DNA from: Deltaproteobacteria bacterium RBG_13_61_14
Lineage (GTDB): Bacteria > RBG-13-61-14
NCBI GenBank assembly: GCA_001797815.1
Contig: MGQK01000109.1
Location: 3,322-10,319 of the forward strand
Length of the DNA: 6,998 nt
Reading direction: 5' to 3'
The position numbers were made by a program, and so were the translations under genes. Each line of letters starts with the position of its first letter. The first letter of the stretch is position 1. Below are positions 1,217-5,112 of this stretch, in pieces. The notes below the pieces were generated by a model. It ran no database searches and was not told the DNA's origin. It saw nothing but the letters and a program-made list of their open reading frames with translations.

Positions 1217-1963
1217 TTAGTTGCCGGCTTCGAGGTCGTGGAGGAAGCTCAGGATGGCCTGGGCGAGGAGCTCGGGCGCTTCGAAGAAGAGGACGTGGCC
1301 GCGGCCGGGGAGGATCTCCAGCCGGCAGCGGGGCAGGCGTTCCTTGAAGAGGCGGGCGTGCGCCACCGGGTATTGCTCGTCCAGCTCGCCGTGGACCGCC
1401 AGGACCGGACAGCCGATCTGAGGAAGGCGCTCGCGGGTATCGGCGTAGGAGCCGTCGGTGATGGCTTGCTCGGCCCAGCGCAAGTAATTGATCGGATCGT
1501 CGGCCAGGTTATACTCGCCGACCATGCCGTTGTCCTTGAACTTGTCGTAATAGCCCAGGATCTTCCGCTGGAAATACTCGGCGAAGCTTTTGTGCACGTA
1601 GGAGCCGGTGCTGAGCAGGACCAGGCTTTTCACCGCCTGGGGATGGCGCAGCGCCAGGTTCTGAGCGATGATGCCGCCCATGCCGTGTCCGATGACATGG
1701 GCCGGAGCCACGCCCAGGTGCTGGATCAGTCCGGCGAGGTCATCGGCCGAGGCGGCGTGGTGGTAGGTCGTTTTGGGGTGGCGGGTGCGGCCGAAGCCGC
1801 GGAGGTCCGGGAGGATCACCCGGAAGTGGGGAGTGAGGGCATGGAGCAGGTTGGCGAAGGTGAACCGGGGCGCGCCCATGATCCCGTGGATCAAGACCAC
1901 GGGCGGGCCCTCTCCCTGCTCTTCGTAGAAAAGCTCGATGCCGTTGACCGCTGCGTGCGGCAC
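1217..1963 (-). CDS. alpha/beta-hydrolase fold protein lacking the nucleophile Ser
   Basis: With the GTG start at 1963 the protein is 248 residues, a normal length for a single-domain alpha/beta hydrolase. The fold is plain: an N-terminal VNGIELFYEEQGEG strand region, the oxyanion-loop HGIMG (residues 26-30), DLRGFGRT (53-60), the nucleophile elbow near 92-97, a cap segment, then HGELDEQYP with the acid D195 and GRGH with H223. The elbow reads GHGMGG rather than GHSMGG, so the nucleophile position (residue 94, bases 1682-1684) is GGC glycine. Asp and His of the triad are retained. GTG at 1963 was chosen because GGGAG sits 5 nt upstream and the protein begins MPHAAVNGI, typical of the family. 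In-frame TTG 2014, ATG 2002 and ATG 1990 have no Shine-Dalgarno, and the first lies within a terminator-like hairpin. The substrate is unknown; a non-hydrolytic or dead protein is possible. Confidence 0.88.
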   Translation of the reverse strand: MPHAAVNGIELFYEEQGEGPPVVLIHGIMGAPRFTFANLLHALTPHFRVILPDLRGFGRTRHPKTTYHHAASADDLAGLIQHLGVAPAHVIGHGMGGIIAQNLALRHPQAVKSLVLLSTGSYVHKSFAEYFQRKILGYYDKFKDNGMVGEYNLADDPINYLRWAEQAITDGSYADTRERLPQIGCPVLAVHGELDEQYPVAHARLFKERLPRCRLEILPGRGHVLFFEAPELLAQAILSFLHDLEAGN

Positions 1964-1968
1964 TTGCT

Positions 1969-1976
1969 CTCCCTTT
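1969..1976 (-). promoter_or_regulatory. ribosome binding site deciding the hydrolase start
   Basis: On the minus strand AAAGGGAG is followed by AGCAA and then GTG at 1963-1961. The 5-nt spacing and the lack of any such motif before the upstream in-frame ATG and TTG codons make this GTG the preferred start. Confidence 0.65.
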
Positions 1977-2002
1977 CCCGGCCCGACCATACCATTGCCC
2001 AT

Positions 2003-2031
2003 AAAAAAGTTCAAGGGCTATTTCGCCCTTG
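2003..2031 (-). terminator. Rho-independent terminator downstream of GH38, at an insertion junction
   Basis: Read on the minus strand, CAAGGGC (2031-2025) can pair perfectly with GCCCTTG (2018-2012) over a GAAATA loop. AAC and six T residues (2008-2003) follow. It lies after the GH38 gene and before the GTG start of the alpha/beta hydrolase. The 7-bp stem is modest. The first four bases of the 5' arm come from the inserted element (2028-2031); the rest of the hairpin is the direct-repeat copy and flanking DNA. Confidence 0.6.
2018..2027. repeat. 10-bp direct repeat, left copy (candidate target-site duplication)
   Basis: CTATTTCGCC abuts the left end of the inverted-repeat element exactly. 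The second copy, at 2166-2175, abuts the right end. The repeat can be extended by one G on its left side in both copies. It is a copy of the last bases of the GH38 gene, including its stop codon, which is what duplication of the target on insertion would produce. Confidence 0.75.
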
Positions 2032-2047
2032 CCCACCCTCATTTTTT
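2028..2047 (+). repeat. terminal inverted repeat, left
   Basis: CTTGCCCACCCTCATTTTTT is the exact reverse complement of 2146-2165. It begins at the base immediately after the left direct repeat. Confidence 0.85.
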
Positions 2048-2073
2048 AACAGCGCCGCGTATTTTCGGTCTTC

Positions 2074-2133
2074 GTAGGGGCGCAATTGATTGCGCCCACC
2101 TCCCGGCAAGGGCGCGATAAATCGCGCCCCTAC
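2074..2133. repeat. REP-like palindrome doublet inside the insertion
   Basis: Two perfect 9-bp palindromes with 2-base centres stand side by side. GGGCGCAAT pairs with ATTGCGCCC (2078-2097), and GGGCGCGAT pairs with ATCGCGCCC (2110-2129). The outer bases GTAGGGGCGC (2074-2083) and GCGCCCCTAC (2124-2133) are also exact reverse complements, so the block can fold either as two hairpins or as one larger structure. Blocks beginning GTAGGGGCG are a recognisable type of interspersed intergenic repeat in several bacterial phyla; that comparison is from general knowledge. Confidence 0.75.
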
Positions 2134-2145
2134 CCCCGGTTCACG

Positions 2146-2165
2146 AAAAAATGAGGGTGGGCAAG
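2146..2165 (-). repeat. terminal inverted repeat, right
   Basis: This is the exact reverse complement of 2028-2047. Its last base (G2165) directly precedes the GH38 stop codon, which is CTA on the plus strand at 2166-2168. A degenerate relative of this end occurs at 5086-5112. Confidence 0.85.
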
Positions 2166-2175
2166 CTATTTCGCC
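2166..2175. repeat. 10-bp direct repeat, right copy (candidate target-site duplication)
   Basis: CTATTTCGCC is identical to 2018-2027. On the minus strand it encodes the last codons of GH38 (GCG AAA TAG), so this copy is the original gene end and the left copy is the duplicate. Confidence 0.75.
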
Positions 2176-5006
2176 AGAGCCATCCTCAAGGTGATGATCT
2201 GGCCGGGCCGGAGTTTCAAGGCCGCGCCGGCCGGTTCCAGCCGGAATTCCGGCGTCACCACCTTTTCGCCGAGCAGGTTGACCACGGCCTCTGCCCGCAG
2301 GGCCGGGTGCCAGGAGAGGCCGCAGGCCTGCGGCTCCAAGCTCGTGTTGTAAAGCCGGAGGTCAAATGCGTCGGCCGTCACCGGCACGAACGCGCTTAGC
2401 TCCACCCGGGGGTTATCCACCGCGACCAGCCGGGCTTCAGCCGGGCCGGAGCCTTGCCCCGGCGCGGGGAACAGGAGCGGCGGAAAGGCAAAGGCATGGG
2501 CCTGGGCCGCAAGCTCGGCCTCTTCCGCGGAACCCGCAAACCCGGTCAGGGCATATTCGCAGACCAAATCGCGCAGGCATTGTCCGCCCGGGGTGGACAG
2601 GGGCGGCCCCGCATGCTGCGAGCGCTGGCGTAAGTCGGGCCGGCTGAGCCAGCCCACGCTCCGCACCAGGGTCAGAGCGAGGCAAGTCTGACCGGGAAGC
2701 TTCACCGCCTCCACCTCAGCCAGACCCCGGTTGAAAAGGGCCATGCCGAGCTTGCCGTCCGAAATTGCGGCATAGGTCTTGTGCGGCGAAGTGCCGTAGG
2801 TGCCCTCGGTCCCCATCATGATGGCGTTGATGTCCAGGGGGGACGGCTTGCCCGCCGGACGGGTGGGCTGGATCGGCCGCTGGACTGCGCCGAAGGCGCT
2901 CTCGGCCAGGTAATGGTCAGTGGCCAGCGGCGCGTCGAACGCCACCTGCAGGCGGTGGTCCTTGGCGCGGTTAAAGAAGGCGGTGCGGAACTCGACCACC
3001 CGCGAGTCCTGGCCCAGGCTGATGCGGGTGACCAGGTCGAGCGGGACCATCCGCCGGCTGCGGCCTTGCCGGCCGGGCGCCAACTCTGCCGGAATCCGGA
3101 AGCGATGGCGGACGGTGAACTCGGCCAGCGCCGGCCCGCGGGCGAGGAGTTTGGACTGGAAGGAGTCCGGCTCACTGATGGGAGTGTCGCCGGCCACGGG
3201 ATCGAAGTTGTATTCGTCGCCCCGGTCGCCGACATCGAGGAAGCGGAGCCCGGAGATCTTGAGACCACCGGCTTTATCGGCGACGGTCAGTCGGCCCTGC
3301 TCGGTAAGGTCCACCCGCAGATGGGCGTTCTCCAGGAAGCCGGGGCCGGCCTGGAGGTCGGTGGCCGCGGGTCCTTTCCTTGCCCGCTTGACTTGCCAGC
3401 TCGACACGGCCGCCCCCGGCCGGGCCAAGAGCGCCGCGGCCACCTGGTAGCGGGGCAGGCGCTTGAGCTCGATGTGGAGCAGGGTGAGGCTCGGATCGGC
3501 CAAATGCTTTTCCATCTCCCGGCGGAAGCGGGCCAGATCAAAAGCCGCGCGGCGGGAAGCCAGGTCCATGGTCAGGTGCAGCGTCGCGCCCCGCCGTTTC
3601 AGGCGGTAGCCGACGATGAAAGCTCCGATCTGTTCCTCCACGGCCAGCATGTCCAGGGCGATGCCGGCCGCGATCTTGGGCACCGTGATCTCGAATACCT
3701 GCTTTTCCCGCTCGAGCTTCTCGGCCTGGAGCGGCACGCTCTCGCCCGAGGCCGCGACCAGGCCGGCCCGGGCCGGGAGCCGCATCTCCACCTCGCCCCG
3801 GAGCGGCCCGGCGCCGGCGGCGGCGTTGGGGTAAAAGGCGCCGAGCCGGGGACCGGGGCCGGGCAGGCCCTGGGCCACGACCGCGAGAGCGTCGCCGAGC
3901 AAGCGGTCGGCCAGTTGATTCAATTTCGCATAACGGGTCTCCATCTCGTCGTGGACCGCGTCCACCGAGCAGCCGCAGATGGAGTCGTGGGGGTGGTTCT
4001 GGAGAAGAAGCCGCCAGAGGTAGCGCAGGTGGTCGGTGAGGTCGGGGCCGGCCGAGGCGCGGGCGAGGACCGCGAGCGGCTCCAGGTAGCGCTCGAGAGC
4101 GGCGCCGGCGCGGAAATCGGCCTGCTTGAGGTAGAGCCGGGCCGAGGCCACGCCGGGCAGGATCGAGGTGCGTTCGGCCGAGTAGAGCTCGCCCTGGTGC
4201 GCGGGCAGGTCCTGGACGCGCTCGCGCACGCGCTTTAGGTAGAGGGGCAAGTTCCCCATCTCCAGTCGCCAGTTGGGTTTGAGCGCTTGCACCGCCTGGA
4301 GCGTGGCCGGGATCTCGGGCTGGGGCTCCCAGTGGTCGGTGCCGTTGGGCAGGAGGATGATGCCGCTCTTCTCGTTCTTTTTCAAGCCGAGCAGGAAGAT
4401 CTGCAGGCGCTCGATAAGAAGCTTGGGGTCCGCGGGAAGGGCGAAGGCGAAACCGTAACCCAGGGGCAGGAAGATGCCGAGCACGGCGGTGCCATCCGGC
4501 GCCTGCCAGGTGAAGTGGTTGGAGGTGACATCGGCGGTGATGCCGCGCCAGACCATGGCGTTGTCCAGGCCGAAGCCGCGGAGGATCTGGGGCATCTGGC
4601 CGATGTGGCCGAACATGTCGGGGAGGTAGCCGACCGGGACCGGCTCGACCCCGTAGCCGCGGGCGACCCGGAAACCCTCTTGCAGGTTGCGGATGATGGC
4701 TTCGCCCGAGACCAGGAACTCGTCGGGCAGGACATACCAGGGCCCGATGTGGATGCGGCCCTGCTGGATGAGGGCGCGCAGGCGGGGCTCTGGTCCGCGG
4801 ATGGCTTCGTAGTCTTCGAGCACGATGGTCTGGCCGTCGAGGTGGAAGAACTTGTAATCGGGGTCGGCCTCCATGATCGCGGTCAGCCGGTCGAGCAGGC
4901 GGACGAGCCGGTGGCGGAAGGCTTCAAAGGGCAGATACCATTCGCGGTCCCAGTGAGTGTGGGGCACCAGGACAATCTCGAGTTCGGGCGCATTGGCAGG
5001 GGTCAC
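2166..5006 (-). CDS. GH38 alpha-mannosidase (bacterial MngB-like)
   Basis: This is a complete 946-residue glycoside hydrolase family 38 enzyme, somewhat longer than E. coli MngB (about 880). It would hydrolyse terminal alpha-mannosyl linkages with retention, using zinc. The N-terminal catalytic domain opens with VPHTHWDREW, where H18 and D20 are the expected zinc ligands. GYLPDMFGHIGQ supplies the nucleophile D130, and the mid-domain motif NHPHDSICG supplies the remaining ligand H340. HLDGQTIVLEDY (55-66) and IGPWYVLPDEF (87-97) are typical of the bacterial branch. The C-terminal beta domain contains TLVRSVGWLSRPDL. No signal peptide is seen, so a cytoplasmic enzyme is likely, perhaps acting on imported mannosides or mannosylglycerate; the substrate is inference. 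The GTG start at 5006 is supported by AAAGGAG 8 nt upstream and by the closeness of HTHWD to the N-terminus. I saw no clear promoter in the repeat-bearing upstream spacer. Confidence 0.94.
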   Translation of the reverse strand: MTPANAPELEIVLVPHTHWDREWYLPFEAFRHRLVRLLDRLTAIMEADPDYKFFHLDGQTIVLEDYEAIRGPEPRLRALIQQGRIHIGPWYVLPDEFLVSGEAIIRNLQEGFRVARGYGVEPVPVGYLPDMFGHIGQMPQILRGFGLDNAMVWRGITADVTSNHFTWQAPDGTAVLGIFLPLGYGFAFALPADPKLLIERLQIFLLGLKKNEKSGIILLPNGTDHWEPQPEIPATLQAVQALKPNWRLEMGNLPLYLKRVRERVQDLPAHQGELYSAERTSILPGVASARLYLKQADFRAGAALERYLEPLAVLARASAGPDLTDHLRYLWRLLLQNHPHDSICGCSVDAVHDEMETRYAKLNQLADRLLGDALAVVAQGLPGPGPRLGAFYPNAAAGAGPLRGEVEMRLPARAGLVAASGESVPLQAEKLEREKQVFEITVPKIAAGIALDMLAVEEQIGAFIVGYRLKRRGATLHLTMDLASRRAAFDLARFRREMEKHLADPSLTLLHIELKRLPRYQVAAALLARPGAAVSSWQVKRARKGPAATDLQAGPGFLENAHLRVDLTEQGRLTVADKAGGLKISGLRFLDVGDRGDEYNFDPVAGDTPISEPDSFQSKLLARGPALAEFTVRHRFRIPAELAPGRQGRSRRMVPLDLVTRISLGQDSRVVEFRTAFFNRAKDHRLQVAFDAPLATDHYLAESAFGAVQRPIQPTRPAGKPSPLDINAIMMGTEGTYGTSPHKTYAAISDGKLGMALFNRGLAEVEAVKLPGQTCLALTLVRSVGWLSRPDLRQRSQHAGPPLSTPGGQCLRDLVCEYALTGFAGSAEEAELAAQAHAFAFPPLLFPAPGQGSGPAEARLVAVDNPRVELSAFVPVTADAFDLRLYNTSLEPQACGLSWHPALRAEAVVNLLGEKVVTPEFRLEPAGAALKLRPGQIITLRMALAK

Positions 5007-5021: not shown

Positions 5022-5045
5022 CCGGCAAATCAGGAGAAGATTTTA

Positions 5046-5072
5046 ACACAGAGCGCACAGAGAACACAGAGG
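5046..5072. repeat. three 9-bp tandem CACAGAG-type repeats
   Basis: Three consecutive 9-mers, ACACAGAGC, GCACAGAGA and ACACAGAGG, share the core CACAGAG at exact 9-base spacing. They follow TTTTAACA. Similar ACACAGAG-rich intergenic blocks are common in some environmental bacterial genomes, from general knowledge. The block lies 39 bp upstream of the GH38 start, in what should be its leader or promoter region. No coding potential is credible here. Confidence 0.7.
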
Positions 5073-5085
5073 AAGATAAATACTA

Positions 5086-5112
5086 GGTTCAGAAGAAATG
5101 AGGATGGTTAAG
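5086..5112. repeat. degenerate copy of the MITE right end
   Basis: The segment starting GGTTCAGAAGAAATGAGG matches 2138-2165 (GGTTCACGAAAAAATGAGG and onward) at 23 of 28 aligned columns, with one gap. It ends in AAG one base before the DUF507 stop codon, just as the right end of the insertion abuts the GH38 stop. No matching left terminal repeat is visible in 5007-5085; only TTTTAACA (5041-5048) recalls the sequence at 2044-2051. Confidence 0.5.

Follow-up and report, generated by a model that had tools for sequence, protein, structure and literature searches.

Between the genes for a GH38 alpha-mannosidase and an alpha/beta hydrolase, Deltaproteobacteria bacterium RBG_13_61_14 carries a short, gene-free segment that lies exactly at a stop codon. 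This locus raises the question of what the segment is, what moved it, and what singled out its landing place. We examined it within a 6,998-nucleotide stretch of contig MGQK01000109.1 (the window; Table 1), across the rest of its source genome (an assembly of 4.74 Mb in 132 contigs, 95% complete), and in other genomes that carry the same ends.

The element and its copies

The segment has the anatomy of a MITE: it is short (138 bp) and non-coding, and is bounded by TIRs that are 100% complementary over 20 nt, and no match to the TIR with up to three mismatches is expected by chance within the window. A perfect 10-bp direct repeat, CTATTTCGCC, abuts both TIRs, and the match grows to 11 nt if the G at 2017/2165 is included. 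Compared with shuffled sequences the segment folds far better on both strands (z -8.6 and -6.8), an effect of the two REP-like palindromes that lie between the TIRs. An Rfam search gave no match, and no U-run follows the core hairpin.

Table 1. Features of the element and its insertion site, in window coordinates.
Feature	Position	Strand	Remarks
MITE, 138 bp	2028-2165		the source genome has 47, counting partial copies
Left TIR, CTTGCCCACCCTCATTTTTT	2028-2047	+	promoter-facing end; 19-bp ends identical in other phyla
Right TIR	2146-2165	-	perfect complement of left TIR
Target-site duplication CTATTTCGCC, promoter-side copy	2018-2027		
Target-site duplication CTATTTCGCC, GH38-side copy	2166-2175		includes GH38 stop codon, 2166-2168
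REP-like palindrome, arm 1 of core, GTAGGGGCGCAATTGATTGCGCCC	2074-2097	+	folding z -8.6
REP-like palindrome, arm 2 of core, GGGCGCGATAAATCGCGCCCCTAC	2110-2133	+	inverted pair with arm 1; folding
Predicted -35 box, TTGAAC	2009-2014	-	starts 13 nt outside TIR (10-bp repeat + CCC)
Predicted -10 box, TATGGT	1986-1991	-	17 nt from -35 box
Alpha/beta hydrolase	1217-1963	-	Pfam; predicted promoter upstream; GTG start 1963-1961
Hydrolase ribosome-binding site, AAAGGGAGAG	1967-1976	-	
GH38 alpha-mannosidase	2166-5006	-	upstream neighbour, same direction, undamaged by insertion

The element is one of many in its genome. BLAST of the element against its own genome gave 74 matches. Scores were taken for about 40 separate places, whose identity is 75-100%; most of these run from query position 11 to 148 exactly, that is, end to end from TIR to TIR, at 75-97% identity. 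A pattern search with the TIR found 33 forward and 32 reverse occurrences; the reversed control gave 1 and 0. From 16 copies we made a profile that, applied to fetched stretches of the source genome, marked 48 places, and 47 of these, partial copies included, were used for the statistics below; tried on 400 kb of background, the same profile revealed a single REP-like palindrome pair and no additional complete copy. Many copies are flanked by perfect direct repeats of 9-12 bp, centred on 10 bp, each of a different sequence. Dozens of copies running from TIR to TIR, most of them with a 10-bp repeat of their own, therefore define a MITE family.

The first-pass annotation had described a MITE-like insertion with perfect 20-bp ends and a 10-bp target duplication, and all of this stands: the ends and the repeat are exact, and the further copies with different 10-bp flanks that it anticipated are present among the 47 places of the source genome. 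Its suggestion of recent movement is plausible, given the perfect TIRs and repeat and the 96-99% identity between the window element and three or four other copies.

Several smaller observations belong here. Four contigs of the source genome (C10, C99, C68 and C122 of G000) terminate within or right beside element copies; the assembly thus probably breaks at these repeats, and more copies may exist than were counted. In both TIRs, positions 8, 12 and 15 vary (A/T, C/T and G/T, respectively) within the source genome, with identical polymorphisms in other phyla. The palindrome pair found in the background (L199:8414-8489, on G000:C53) has the REP-like core but lacks transposon ends, and occurs once in 400 kb; in unrelated genomes, a search with the MITE as query matched only such REP-like cores. 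Elsewhere in the window, AAATGAGGATGGTTAAG at 5096-5112, between DUF507 and GH38, resembles a decayed MITE end (AAATGAGGGTGGGCAAG, 3 mismatches), and the gap upstream of GH38 contains a repetitive CACAGAG...CACAGAGAACACAGAGG stretch (5041-5075) of a type that also occurs in other environmental genomes.

Position relative to predicted promoters

The copies lie in a fixed register just upstream of predicted sigma70-type promoters. These promoters are consensus-based predictions (-35 and -10 boxes), and offsets are counted outward from the TIR end, such that 13 corresponds to the 10-bp repeat plus 3 nt. Of 93 flanks, 29 have a TTGA that begins precisely at offset 13, where the genome rate predicts 0.4 (binomial P ~1e-45). 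With the motif relaxed to TTG[AC] and the offset to 12-14, 40 of 47 copies have a candidate -35 box, nearly always at 13 and always on one side only, the left end facing the promoter in 28 and the right end in 12 (P 0.017 versus equal use); in the other 7 of 47 no -35 box could be recognised at this distance. A -10 box (TANNNT) follows 16-18 nt beyond the -35 box at 26 of these 40 sites (65%), with a peak at 17 nt (19 sites), compared with 2.6% of TTG[AC] and 17% of TTGACA occurrences in 400 kb of background. Even poor -35 hexamers, such as TTGCGC and TTGCCC, are accompanied by a -10 box in 10 of 15 targets, which argues that whole promoters, and not the hexamer alone, mark the target. At 38 of the 40 sites an open reading frame starts in the right direction no more than 300 nt from the predicted +1.

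The GH38-hydrolase junction follows the same rule. The hydrolase promoter is predicted immediately behind the mannosidase gene, with a -35 box starting 3 nt beyond the GH38 stop codon (minus-strand TAG) and a predicted +1 lying 15 nt ahead of the hydrolase GTG start. Because of this spacing the stop codon falls inside the 10-bp target and neither gene was harmed. The first-pass annotation had placed the insertion exactly at the stop codon: the stop does lie within the repeat, but the choice of site follows the promoter, and the stop is a by-product of that choice. Its statements that GH38 is undamaged and that 54 nt would separate the two genes once the element and one repeat are removed hold good, the stop codon being retained in the repeat and the spacer being counted to the hydrolase GTG. 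No empty site was found in the two other genomes examined from this order, where the gene that GH38 overlaps is a different one and the hydrolase lies elsewhere.

Same-ended transposons and their accessory gene

Uncultured genomes unrelated to the source show these ends again, together with the 10-bp repeats and the 13-nt rule. A scan for CTTGCCCWCCCYCAKTTTT in one genome per GTDB species returned 79 stretches, several of them within the same uncultured genomes. About ten are short end pairs of 93-496 bp, with direct repeats that agree at 8-10 of 10 bp and with unrelated cores. TTGA stands at exactly 13 in 21 of the 68 exact ends outside cultured isolates; matches in isolates, which we take as chance, have TTG[AC] at 12-14 in 0 of 15. 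One scanned genome, AlinenSedimentsD2_bin-1424 (G098), has contigs, coordinates and scores identical to those of G002, an order-mate of the source genome, and appears to be that genome. Two end matches in viral contigs were judged to be chance, one having no second end (L095) and the other no promoter at the offset (L094).

Some of the relatives contain a transposase. In a Nitrospinota genome the ends lie 1.2 kb apart and enclose a broken DDE transposase (L147); in two loci from Acidobacteria the transposase is intact, a single ORF of 399 aa in L099 and of 408 aa in L170. Two further elements come from the phylum of acidobacterium G108: a complete element of 1796 bp (L210, positions 1-1796), which begins at the contig edge, and one of 1545 bp (L212, positions 366-1910). 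Among the relatives L210 alone is uninterrupted, with each end and each gene intact, and L099 and L147 are without matching repeats. In a genome of the same order as the source, a CTTGCCC end with TTGACT 13 nt outside it is adjoined on its inner side by a frame-broken C-terminus of this transposase (L180). The full insertion sequence with matching ends that the first-pass annotation had in mind thus exists in other genomes, not in the source genome, with autonomous elements represented by L210 and L212 and decayed ones by L147 and L180.

These proteins have the marks of the IS4 family, which is defined by D(60-110)D(100-150)E spacing together with a Y(2)R(3)E(6)K signature, and whose transposase is stated to be a single ORF (De Palmenaer et al., 2008; PMC2266710). 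In L099 the catalytic residues D109, D175 and E285 give D(65)D(109)E, and Y278, R281, E285 and K292 form the signature, which is conserved in L170, L097 and L147. The L099 and L170 proteins score above the cut-off of PF01609 and below those of the NCBIfam IS4 models (127-136 of 152 bits); each is a single ORF, with a DUF6788 gene in addition. The 10-bp repeats of the same-ended MITEs fall within the family range of 8-13 bp, and at complete autonomous copies no intact repeat was seen. The nearest named match on plasmids is ISTth2, at 30% identity; no relative of the transposase was found in viral contigs, or, with an E threshold of 1e-40, among 386 genomes spanning the domain. The 95%-complete source genome itself has neither this IS4-type transposase nor DUF6788. 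Its three DDE_Tnp_1 genes were considered as movers of the MITE and rejected, as their ends differ. Judged from sequence, the MITE family can be tied to IS4-type (YREK) transposons, and because the source genome lacks the transposase we infer mobilisation in trans, on the basis of shared ends, repeat length and target rule.

DUF6788 (PF20586; ~100 aa) lies upstream of the IS4-type transposase in L170, L210, L147 and L099, and directly inside a CTTGCCC end in L111. It also adjoins ISKra4 transposases above the NF033572 cut-off (L214, L217, L229 and L231), and stands next to IS66 (L230) and Tn5-like (L218) transposases; insertion sequences with unrelated transposase families thus apparently often carry it as an accessory gene. 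In L216, too, DUF6788 lies directly beside an ISKra4 transposase. Few of these other elements have readable ends: the bounded ISKra4 element L247 has TTGACT-17-TACAAT at offset 16, and L246, L240 and L250 show no clear fit. The predicted DUF6788 model is confident (pLDDT 93.8), and comparison with solved structures gave no clear Foldseek match, with VIA Z at most 5.4. We found no report on DUF6788 in the open-access literature.

The presence of DUF6788 beside transposases of ISKra4 type, some members of which are published as promoter-targeting, together with the promoter at offset 16 in L247, makes a shared role in targeting worth entertaining. DUF6788 might be a portable promoter-targeting subunit common to IS4-type and ISKra4-type transposases, docking the complex on RNA polymerase; we offer this tentatively and think it unlikely as it stands, and published work on Mutator-like elements (p-MULT) places specificity in a motif of the transposase (PMC3942029). 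Were it true, elements with DUF6788 and their MITEs would settle at a harmless position immediately ahead of the -35 box, and an accessory protein carrying the specificity would amount to a small portable targeting module.

Mechanism, alternatives and known systems

We consider it highly probable that the segment is a non-autonomous MITE moved in trans by an IS4-family transposase, with its target tied to promoters. A DDE transposase of the YREK type would bind the CTTGCCC[AT]CCC[CT]CA[GT]TTTT ends of the MITE and cut the target with a 10-bp stagger, and the transposition complex would insert such that the duplicated 10 bp end 3 bp before a -35 hexamer of the housekeeping type. In the window the target promoter would be that of the alpha/beta hydrolase, sparing both genes. 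Targeting probably proceeds via RNA polymerase or sigma factor bound at the promoter and not via bare sequence, and the 138-bp MITE was presumably mobilised by a transposase of the type encoded by its relatives.

The target rule would look similar if the transposase itself read a CTTGAC-like motif, akin to its own CTTGCC end, at a fixed distance, with promoters merely containing that motif. The TIR does start with CTTGCC, the target, on the other side of the 10-bp repeat, carries (C)TTGAC inverted relative to it, and many targets are exact TTGACA. The -10 box is nevertheless present at targets well above both background rates, and equally often where the -35 box is poor; part of this excess could be explained by selection for intergenic survivors. 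Direct motif reading is possible, though on balance we doubt it. A REP/REPIN-type repeat, or a terminator or attenuator, kept for a host function and bordered by direct repeats only incidentally, would account for the two REP-like palindromes, the strong folding and the location of copies between genes. REP elements, however, lack long TIRs and 10-bp target duplications, and here the copies bear different perfect 10-bp repeats, same-ended elements elsewhere have unrelated cores, and neither an Rfam match nor a U-run after the hairpin was found. We find this explanation hardly credible.

A mover of the Mutator-like p-MULT group, of ISKra4 or ISLre2/TnGBS type, has in its favour that TnGBS/ISLre2 and ISKra4 choose the same kind of target, sites that precede sigmaA promoters by a set distance (Guerillot et al., 2014; PMC3942029). 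The terminal C and IR length (18-39 bp) are also compatible, and the near-perfect IRs with insertion in both orientations resemble those of ISKra4 members. The geometry is not the same, p-MULT elements having 8-9 bp repeats and the -35 box at 15-17 bp (PMC3942029) as against 10 bp and 13 here. The source genome has no match to ISKra4 (NF033572) or UPF0236 (PF06782), the ISKra4 elements we met have GGGTGTGCGAC-type ends, and elements with exactly the ends of our MITE encode an IS4-type transposase. A p-MULT mover is thus very improbable, and we retain the IS4-type transposase acting in trans.

Set beside known systems, the family is recognisable in most of its parts. It shares with bacterial MITEs its short, non-coding build, TIRs, target duplication, many copies and the lack of an internal transposase, and differs in its exact promoter register and in the absence of the cognate transposase from the source assembly. 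With REP/REPIN sequences its core has in common two GTAGGGGCGC...GCGCCCCTAC-type palindromes, which in this family lie between transposon ends and travel with them as a unit. The relatives agree with the IS4 family in DDE spacing and YREK signature, and a 10-bp repeat, one turn of the helix, fits; they differ in the extra DUF6788 gene, in promoter targeting, and in the combination of CT ends with 10-bp repeats, which fits none of the seven tabulated subgroups (IS231, ISH8, IS4Sa, IS4, IS10, IS50 and ISPepr1, with repeats of 9 bp for IS10, 8-9 for IS50 and 7-8 for ISPepr1; PMC2266710). De Palmenaer et al. (2008; PMC2266710) describe strong target-arm specificity in some elements of the IS4 subgroup, without using the word promoter, a possible precedent; in the open-access literature we found no report of promoter targeting by IS4-family elements.

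The closest likeness in behaviour, as a comparison of how the elements work, is to the p-MULT elements, with which this family shares a constant spacing between the insertion and the promoter downstream of it, an initial C in the IRs, and near-perfect IRs that go with insertion in both orientations. It differs in its 10-bp repeats, in the -35 box at 13 nt and in a transposase of another superfamily, and no MITE is discussed by Guerillot et al. (2014; PMC3942029). That an unrelated transposase family, spread over several phyla, has arrived at the same habit suggests more than one evolutionary origin for insertion next to promoters, a strategy that does little damage. With roughly 40 natural records of target choice available from a single genome, recognition of RNA polymerase, of sigma factor and of the bare -35 box can be tested against one another. 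Targeting upstream of promoters by Mutator-like elements was already known; what we add is the same kind of targeting associated with the ends of IS4-type transposons and with a fixed geometry of its own.
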